From contig OX638292.1 of NCBI GenBank assembly GCA_951812285.1, positions 907,008 to 971,007 of the forward strand: DNA of 64,000 nt, given 5' to 3'. Under the pieces are notes generated by a model, which ran no database searches, was not told the origin of the DNA, and was given only the letters and a program-made list of their open reading frames with translations. This stretch comes from an uncultured Dehalococcoidia bacterium (GTDB taxonomy: Bacteria; Chloroflexota; Dehalococcoidia; Lucifugimonadales; UBA1127). Of the stretch, positions 19,436 through 20,586 are shown piece by piece; position 1 is the stretch's first letter, and each line of letters begins with the position of its first letter. The position numbers and the translations under genes are program-made.

Positions 19436-19681
19436 CTATTCCGCCCCAGCTGCTGCGAGCGCCTCATCTATCTTGTCGGTGCTGTAACCGGCGATCCACT
19501 CACTGCCAATGACCGTGACCGGCGTGGTCCGAAAACCGTTCTCAATGAGGGTATCCCTCGCTTCACGGTCCTCAGAGACGTTGCGCTCCGTAAAGGAAAT
19601 GCCCTTTTGTGAAAGGTACACTTTCACCATGTGGCATGGGCCTCAGCCTGCTGATGTAAACACCTGGATGTTTGTCTCCAT
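19436..19681 (-). CDS. Selenocysteine-containing glutaredoxin-like protein (UGPC active site)
   Basis: The protein has 81 residues, starting at ATG 19681 with AGGAGG eight bases upstream. Codon 13 is an in-frame TGA (19643-19645) exactly where the first active-site Cys of a glutaredoxin belongs: METNIQVFTSAG-U-GPCHMVKVYL. The rest is a clean glutaredoxin/NrdH fold with cis-Pro in RTTPVTVIG and the GYSTDKIDEAL C-terminal helix. A SECIS-like hairpin follows the TGA. A standard gene caller would truncate it to a 64-residue fragment starting at the Met after GPCH, losing the active site. It lies 15 bases after the FTR-like gene, so one transcript is likely. Role inferred: thiol/selenol electron carrier fed by the FTR-like protein. 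Confidence 0.9.
19609..19627 (-). promoter_or_regulatory. bSECIS-like hairpin after Sec13 of the glutaredoxin
   Basis: Counting T of TGA as 1, a perfect 7-bp stem GTGAAAG/CTTTCAC spans 19-37 with loop TGTAC, including a G-U pair in the loop. Distance and loop content fit the bacterial SECIS rule for SelB recognition. Confidence 0.8.
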
Positions 19682-19696
19682 GGACGTTTCCTCCTG

Positions 19697-20131
19697 CTAA
19701 CCTTCCCGGCCTCTTTCTTGCCGTCGCTTCTCGTTGAACTCGCGCTTGCCTCCGGTCTCTTCGAAGAGCTCCTGACCCTGGGGCACGGCCTCGTCTATGG
19801 TTTGAACGGCCTTTTCACCTTCCAGATACTTGCGAAGAAACTCTTCGCTTACGAAGAACATTCATATACAGAAACCGTCGCGCTCGATGTCCTCATGATG
19901 TCGTTCGCAGGGGCAGATTTTCTTGCGATCCTCTACGGGATCGCCACTGAGGGGCATTCAGGGGCAGTAGCGATAACCGTGAACGCGCTCGTTTTCCGCC
20001 AAGCCCTGCTGTACGAGCTCAACTACCTCTCGCTCGGGGAAAAGCTCATAGGGCCCTCGCGCGACGTAGCGTTCCGAGAACTTGACGGCGCGCTCCATCG
20101 CCTCCTCAGGAGTCATTTCCCTCTTCGCCAT
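19697..20131 (-). CDS. FTR-like iron-sulfur disulfide reductase with two selenocysteines
   Basis: From ATG 20131 the frame gives 144 residues if two TGA codons are read as Sec: codon 58 (19958-19960) and codon 90 (19862-19864). It then matches the catalytic (beta) subunit of ferredoxin-thioredoxin reductase: GYRYCP-U, then GDPVEDRKKICPC, then HEDIERDGFCI-U-MFFV. In that family the two CxC motifs at the ends each give one [4Fe-4S] ligand (first Cys) and one redox-active Cys (last); the middle CPC gives two ligands. Here the ligands C56, C73, C75 and C88 are kept, and exactly the two redox-active positions are Sec. A charged C-terminal tail of about 45 residues follows. A SECIS-like hairpin follows each TGA. 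Gene callers would break it at codon 58. Confidence 0.9.
19832..19848 (-). promoter_or_regulatory. bSECIS-like hairpin after Sec90 of the FTR-like protein
   Basis: A perfect 6-bp stem GCGAAG/CTTCGC spans positions 17-33 after the TGA, with loop AGTTT containing G-U. Confidence 0.75.
19925..19944 (-). promoter_or_regulatory. bSECIS-like hairpin after Sec58 of the FTR-like protein
   Basis: A perfect 7-bp stem GCGATCC/GGATCGC spans positions 17-36 after the TGA, with loop CGTAGA containing G-U. Confidence 0.8.
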
Positions 20132-20139
20132 GTTAGCCC

Positions 20140-20484
20140 CTATACCCGGCTCGAAGCAGGCCCCAAGCGCATCTGCAGGTGCAGATCGCACGGCATGCTT
20201 TCGAATTGTCGTTGTTGCTGCACAAGGCGGTCAACCAGTGAAGGCAGCGCCTCCCGGATTTCGGGTATAGTCTTTTCTTTCGAGACCTCAACGCTGAGGA
20301 GGGCGCTGGTGCCGCAAGAGCACCGGTCGGCGAAGAAGACCTTCCTGAAGCCTGGATTGGCGGAGAGATTCAGCTTGAAGCCCGGCAAAGGCGTGAGGTT
20401 CGTGTCCAGTGGCAACGCGTCGCAGATGAGAGCCCTGATGCGCTGCGTCACCTCGGCCTCTTCCGCATCCTTGGACATAGGCAT
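20140..20484 (-). CDS. Unknown 114-residue protein, first gene of the selenoprotein operon
   Basis: ATG 20484 follows GGAGCAGAGAA; an in-frame Met two codons later is also possible. The frame is open further upstream only because it reads through the tRNA-Glu gene. The protein is soluble, with an alpha-helical N-terminus, a central beta section FRKVFFADRCSCGTSALLSVEV carrying a C-S-C pair, and a C-terminal helix with one more Cys (ESMPCDLHL). It ends eight bases before the FTR-like gene. Family unknown. Position and Cys content suggest a redox or metal role in the same pathway. Confidence 0.7.
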   Translation of the reverse strand: MPMSKDAEEAEVTQRIRALICDALPLDTNLTPLPGFKLNLSANPGFRKVFFADRCSCGTSALLSVEVSKEKTIPEIREALPSLVDRLVQQQRQFESMPCDLHLQMRLGPASSRV

Positions 20485-20508: not shown

Positions 20509-20586
20509 TGGTGGCGCATACGGGATTCGAACCCGTGGTCTCCGCCTTGAGAGGGCGGTGTCCTTGGCCGCTAGACGAATGCGCCA
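20509..20586 (-). tRNA. tRNA-Glu(CTC)
   Basis: Acceptor arms TGGCGCA and TGCGCCA pair, with the CCA encoded. The anticodon stem CCGCC/GGCGG encloses loop CTCTCAA with anticodon CTC. The T-arm contains GGTTCGAATCC. It lies directly before the selenoprotein operon on the same strand. Confidence 0.95.

Follow-up and report, generated by a model that had tools for sequence, protein, structure and literature searches.

A predicted double-selenocysteine FTR-type reductase and a predicted selenocysteine glutaredoxin in a conserved Chloroflexota operon

Background

Reductases of the ferredoxin-thioredoxin reductase (FTR) type that carry selenocysteine (Sec) at both redox positions are an already known family. 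An ocean-metagenome read, JCVI_READ_1093012271142, was reported in 2008 with two predicted Sec residues matching both redox-active cysteines (PMC2398784), a 2026 review lists the FTR family with two Sec (PMC13188914), and NCBIfam keeps the family as the equivalog NF041072, 'FtrB_double_U' (FtrB family double-selenoprotein). These sources, as far as their accessible text goes, refute the statement of the first-pass annotation of the present locus that no described protein was known to carry Sec in place of both FTR redox cysteines. The reductase considered here belongs to the same family, with Sec predicted at both redox positions. The 2008 report, however, describes its FTR as a single gene, and its accessible portion mentions no Sec glutaredoxin neighbour.

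Several structurally characterized proteins are related to this system. The Desulfotalea psychrophila glutaredoxin/ferredoxin disulfide reductase fusion (PDB 7PWE) holds the same two partners in one chain and is a precedent for the pairing of an FTR with a glutaredoxin. It differs in being of the Cys type, the motifs of its FTR part being CPC and CYC with no Sec seen there, and its glutaredoxin domain is not among the 60 listed of 82 PDB matches to the profile of the glutaredoxin described below. Methanosarcina acetivorans has a ferredoxin-dependent disulfide reductase (PDB 4TPU), whose PDB sequence of 173 aa bears the name rubredoxin; it is a single-chain FTR relative by both sequence and fold but has Cys at both redox sites. 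The plant and cyanobacterial FTRs (1DJ7, 2PU9, 7BZK) are alike in catalytic-chain fold and cysteine pattern, whereas they contain Cys only, need an FtrA chain and reduce thioredoxins.

Sec genes are likewise clustered in known selenoprotein operons (grdA-grdB, prdB-prdC, frhA-frhD-hdrA, Prx/SelW-like, SAO and Tso), and such clustering is taken as a sign of a shared pathway (PMC13188914); the FTR/glutaredoxin pair is not among the operons named in the accessible part of that review. A conserved operon of a double-Sec FTR, a Sec glutaredoxin and the third gene described here (OrfX) was not reported in the literature searched, which took in a portion of the relevant selenoprotein papers. The accessible text of the deep-Sep paper (PMC12013277) likewise gave no match for FTR, glutaredoxin or Chloroflexota terms.

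Organization of the gene cluster

The cluster lies in a window of 64,000 nucleotides (the whole stretch of DNA analysed) taken from a one-contig genome of 2.86 Mb that is 94% complete. Three genes follow one another on the minus strand. The first, OrfX (20140..20484), encodes 114 aa of an unnamed family; it falls inside the span 19436-20484 delimited by the first-pass annotation but is absent from its text. After 8 bases comes the FTR/FDR-type reductase of the FtrB_double_U family (19697..20131; 144 aa with TGA read as Sec, U), for which Sec58 and Sec90 are predicted. After a further 15 bases, and preceded by a purine-rich AGGAGG stretch, comes the glutaredoxin-family protein, Grx (19436..19681; 81 aa with TGA read as U), with the active site U13-G-P-C16. 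A tRNA-Glu gene (20509-20585) lies on the same strand just upstream of the cluster.

Translation and the corresponding columns of homologues place the three predicted Sec codons at 19958..19960 (Sec58, motif CPU), 19862..19864 (Sec90, motif CIU) and 19643..19645 (Sec13, motif UGPC), all on the minus strand. The first-pass annotation had described in-frame TGA codons only at redox-active Cys positions, with CP-U, CPC and CI-U in the FTR and U-GPC in the Grx; this description held, and its coordinates for the three TGA codons were exact.

Evidence for selenocysteine insertion

Conservation of the UGA codons was evaluated in 58 Chloroflexota loci of other genomes, collected with two scan patterns that contain no Sec codon. 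All 58 carry TGA at both FTR sites. Of 393 genomes sampled from the class, 26 have a match above the FTR family cut-off, and all 26 show exactly two TGA codons. Given 58/58 loci and 26/26 sampled genomes, the FTR TGAs are neither chance nor read error. Two short database copies deviate, with Cys (P0012) or Ser (P0013) at the first FTR site and termination at the second in each case. The genes were also thought to be missed or truncated by standard gene callers, which proved partly correct: two of 11 database FTR relatives are cut at the second site, but the other nine are called through with W printed.

The printed W at both FTR sites is what speaks for a competing explanation, in which UGA at these sites means Trp or stop and the genes are otherwise recoded or decayed. 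This explanation is scarcely credible. It is opposed by the retention of both TGAs in all 58 loci and by relatives that have Cys at these sites. Moreover, TGA is the stop of 14 of the 31 ATG-started frames of at least 300 aa in the window (both strands counted, so that shadow frames are possible); as an ordinary stop of long frames, it is not generally reassigned. Two further findings, described below, also stand against it: the genome's complete Sec gene set and the hairpins, whose synonymous sites are nearly fixed.

A genomic search for the Sec machinery recovered selA, selB, selD and tRNA-Sec, as Sec decoding of these codons calls for. Profile matches lie above the cut-off for selA (541 bits), for selB (345 bits, counting its neighbouring stretch) and for selD (380 bits), the last gene containing one TGA itself. 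The tRNA-Sec match scores 72.9 bits against a gathering score of 47. Since the specificity of this model is low (5 of 14 controls exceed its cut-off), the anticodon matters, and ARAGORN calls the match tRNA-SeC with anticodon TCA. A second tRNA-Sec-like match (G000:C1:1882742-1882827, L005) is named tRNA-Pyl by ARAGORN, with anticodon CTA, yet TAG ends many frames of the window.

Each of the three UGAs is followed after 13-15 nt by a SECIS-like hairpin with a 7-bp stem and G at loop positions 1-2. These hairpins lie at 19925..19944 behind the Sec58 codon (6-nt loop), at 19832..19848 behind the Sec90 codon (3-nt loop starting with G) and at 19609..19627 behind the Sec13 codon (5-nt loop), all on the minus strand. 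An Rfam scan matched no SECIS family in the window, and the hairpins were therefore tested by codon-level controls. With the window included, all seven pairs are kept in 45/59 (Sec58), 55/59 (Sec90) and 42/44 (Sec13) sequences. Synonymous sites within the hairpins are nearly fixed, even for rare codons (Leu CTT 100% against 16% expected, Ser TCA 100% against 12% expected), and return to about background several codons past them. Comparable stems were found in 46/59, 56/59 and 42/44 sequences at the three sites of the double-Sec family and in 1/1 and 2/6 single-Sec FTRs, whereas FTR controls with Cys codons had none at the first (0/32) or second site (0/27), their best stem being 5 bp. The folding energy of the 45 nt that follow each UGA, a weak line of evidence on which the conclusion does not rest, is only mildly low: in the window, 17%, 23.5% and 3.5% of the synonymous variants reach an equally stable fold, and 14/59, 14/59 and 11/44 sequences lie at or below the 5% level at the three sites. 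Overall, these sequence comparisons make the predicted insertion of Sec at U58, U90 and U13 well supported.

The FTR-type reductase

With C put for U, the FTR matches PF02943 (FeThRed_B) at 75.2 bits (cut-off 22), and it scores 222.3 bits against NF041072 (cut-off 160), a family defined by UGA at both redox-Cys positions, as is found here. In an alignment with 4TPU, U58 and U90 stand opposite the final Cys of motifs one and three, respectively. Cys56, Cys73, Cys75 and Cys88 are invariant among the aligned FTR relatives and are the presumed [4Fe-4S] ligands, so far as the alignment can indicate; the alignment bears out the initial assignment of two positions to redox chemistry and of four cysteines to the cluster. 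The predicted model (pLDDT 82.5, weak past residue 110) matched the FTR-type folds of 7PWE, 4TPU, 7BZK and 1DJ7 in Foldseek, 7PWE being the best (E 6.7e-7, 30% identity). The genome has one PF02943 gene and, at 94% completeness, no match to PF02941 (FtrA). The absence of an FtrA gene points to the single-chain ferredoxin:disulfide reductase type and not to the plant/cyanobacterial heterodimer.

Among 93 FTR rows, gathered with a pattern that required Cys at the other motif places, the two redox sites read UU in 60 (one being the window and one the phage copy described below), CU in six, UC in one and CC in 26. The six CU rows are Chloroflexota FTRs with a single TGA at the second redox position (L047, L048 and L050-L053), the UC row is a Chloroflexota FTR with a single TGA at the first (L026), and the class sample holds further single-TGA FTR matches. 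A tree of 54 of the 93 rows, with open forks at many deep positions and a long branch for L026, unites the 21 double-Sec rows in one group (99/98).

A phage-borne copy of the reductase

An intact double-Sec FTR (L119:5004-5465) was also found on three IMG/VR contigs of one phage genotype (L118-L120, L136-L138), contigs that are identical over the 2001 bp compared and may not be independent samples. The phage FTR is 77% identical to that of the window, has both hairpins and groups in the tree with the window and L057 (94/86). Only the reductase is whole in this copy: upstream, an OrfX-like frame is reduced to its final residues (SCESHERMRLGPALRR), and the downstream frame, read by eye, begins Grx-like and diverges before the UGPC site. 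The contigs carry a major head protein (PHROG 544, 5e-9), an exonuclease (PHROG 298, 7e-28) and a primase/helicase-like gene; most other scanned frames matched no family, and a tRNA gene search on the phage pieces examined found none.

The FTR is present in three of 55 viral loci that have the neighbouring 642-aa gene. In 37 of these loci there is no FTR, and at most 40 nt separates the two phage genes that flank it elsewhere; one further locus lacks a match for one of the flanking genes, and 11 stop short of the site. In L157-L159 another gene, roughly 0.5 kb long (L157:3111-3629, 172 aa), takes up the same gap; no Pfam family lay above its cut-off for this gene. The presence of a different gene at the same phage site makes the site look like a cargo slot. 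Within the accessible text of the literature searched, no report of a selenoprotein gene in a phage genome was found.

Glutaredoxin, OrfX and a proposed relay

The Grx, with C put for U, reaches 56.7 bits against PF00462 (Glutaredoxin; cut-off 22.9). It reached no cut-off of the NCBIfam subfamilies YruB, NrdH, GRX_bact and UXX-star, the best models being YruB (70.1 of 88.55) and NrdH (58.5 of 85.75). All 43 Grx copies adjacent to an FTR have the UGPC active site; the Grx alignment comprises 13 of these 43 and the window. Other glutaredoxin-like sequences were also observed. The genome has a second glutaredoxin-like stretch with a TGA (G000:C1:2560596-2560751, L289; 25.9 bits, cut-off 22.9), and three loci (L083, L089 and L098) carry, on the opposite strand and about 2.6-5 kb from the FTR, another kind of glutaredoxin-like frame, marked by a PGUFSC motif.

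Considered together, the FTR with its two UGAs and the Grx with its one, all predicted to encode Sec, likely constitute a ferredoxin-driven relay running from cluster to diselenide to Grx, a reading that we favour with modest confidence. Its steps are drawn by analogy from ordinary FTR chemistry. Ferredoxin, the presumptive donor, would reduce a [4Fe-4S] cluster one electron at a time, and this cluster would be held by C56, C73, C75 and C88. The cluster would open a putative Sec58-Sec90 diselenide, and the exposed Sec58 would then attack the bond between Sec13 and Cys16 of the Grx and so reduce the Grx, the probable acceptor in species that have it. The placement of Sec, the gene linkage and the natural Grx/FDR fusion all speak for the relay.

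OrfX would enter this scheme as a metal-binding helper or client, which at present is a guess. Cys55 and Cys57 (CxC) and Cys99 and His102 (CxxH) are invariant in 22 aligned rows (of 42 loci, 14 were skipped at start/stop picking, and 21 of the remaining 28 were used with the window). OrfX has no Pfam or NCBIfam match and no sequence relative in the PDB (best E 0.21), and its confident predicted model (pLDDT 90) has no fold match at E 0.001. The family has 174 relatives, and the 120 listed of these are without Pfam domain or functional name. The invariant CxC and CxxH could also be taken to indicate a metal or metalloid system, in which the Sec and Cys residues of all three proteins would act as ligands or metal reducers instead of protein-disulfide reducers; a metal-ligand role of Sec is proposed for other selenoproteins, e.g. 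the UXX-star family, in the accessible part of a review (PMC13188914). We consider this improbable, as Sec is confined to the redox pair of the FTR, the Grx site is of the dithiol type (UGPC), and no metal-handling gene was recognised within the operon.

Conservation and distribution of the operon

The linkage of a Sec glutaredoxin to the double-Sec FTR, proposed from the window alone, was confirmed by a UGPC Grx in 43 of the 58 loci. In 42 of these the Grx lies downstream on the FTR strand, and in one (L077) it is divergent. OrfX occurs in 42 of the 58 loci, and in 41 it occurs together with the Grx (41 of the 43 Grx loci). The remaining 15 loci, which span 0.9 to 5 kb downstream of the FTR, have no Grx; there the Grx is not adjacent to the FTR, though it could sit elsewhere in the genome.

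A close Grx, defined by a threshold chosen in this analysis (E at most 1e-20 and at least 54% identity), was found in 11 of the 393 sampled genomes. All 11 have the FTR adjacent, ten on the same strand and one divergent (G644). Another 155 sampled genomes gave weaker, more general Grx matches, some with TGA. OrfX (E at most 1e-9) was found in 12 of 386 genomes, all with a double-Sec FTR; it lies near the FTR on the same contig in nine, and two of the other three are partial matches with a stop in frame. Five genomes of the genus were in the sample; of these, G585 (96% complete) gave no FTR, Grx or OrfX match and G622 is without OrfX only.

The close Grx is absent from 15 of the 26 sampled FTR genomes, and the FTR must have another client there; likewise, the 15 of 58 loci without a Grx indicate that the Grx cannot be the partner everywhere. 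The genome also encodes an NADPH thioredoxin reductase (353 bits, cut-off 343), which could be an alternative reductant of the Grx. FTRs without a Grx and the presence of this enzyme speak against a strict FTR-Grx pairing, and the relay must further be weighed against a phage copy that lacks a whole Grx and a Grx that resembles the YruB and NrdH types. The same observations (Grx-less loci and genomes, the thioredoxin reductase, a phage copy whole only in its FTR, and YruB and NrdH as the best named models, albeit below cut-off) would fit an arrangement in which the FTR serves a general client elsewhere (e.g. thioredoxin or peroxiredoxin), while an NrdH-like Grx is fed by thioredoxin reductase and merely shares the operon. 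We regard such an arrangement as unlikely, though deserving of consideration. A close Grx was never seen without the FTR, the two being side by side in 11 of 11 genomes, and a glutaredoxin/reductase fusion has, by the title of 7PWE, been solved as a structure. The neighbours of 18 Grx-less FTR loci (15 bacterial and three phage), listed as unannotated frames in which any with an inner TGA would be cut and ranked by conservation, included none that stood out as common to most.

Discussion

Returning to the ferredoxin-driven relay, its consequences would reach beyond the operon. More tentatively than the relay itself, we suggest that an all-selenium relay with its own CxC/CxxH partner might have become fixed in a SAR202-type branch of the Chloroflexota, and that its reductase might be valuable enough to serve as phage cargo. 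The copy found on the phage contigs would be a case of a phage genome that contains a selenoprotein gene.

If the proposed relay is true, the FTR would offer an example from nature of a diselenide next to an iron-sulfur cluster. During catalysis by ordinary FTR, one of the redox cysteines binds the cluster, and a cluster-selenolate intermediate would consequently be testable here. Diselenides are harder to reduce than disulfides; a low-potential donor fits this property, which would suggest why selenium suits a ferredoxin-driven reductase. The linked Grx offers a concrete acceptor with which such a reductase may be assayed.
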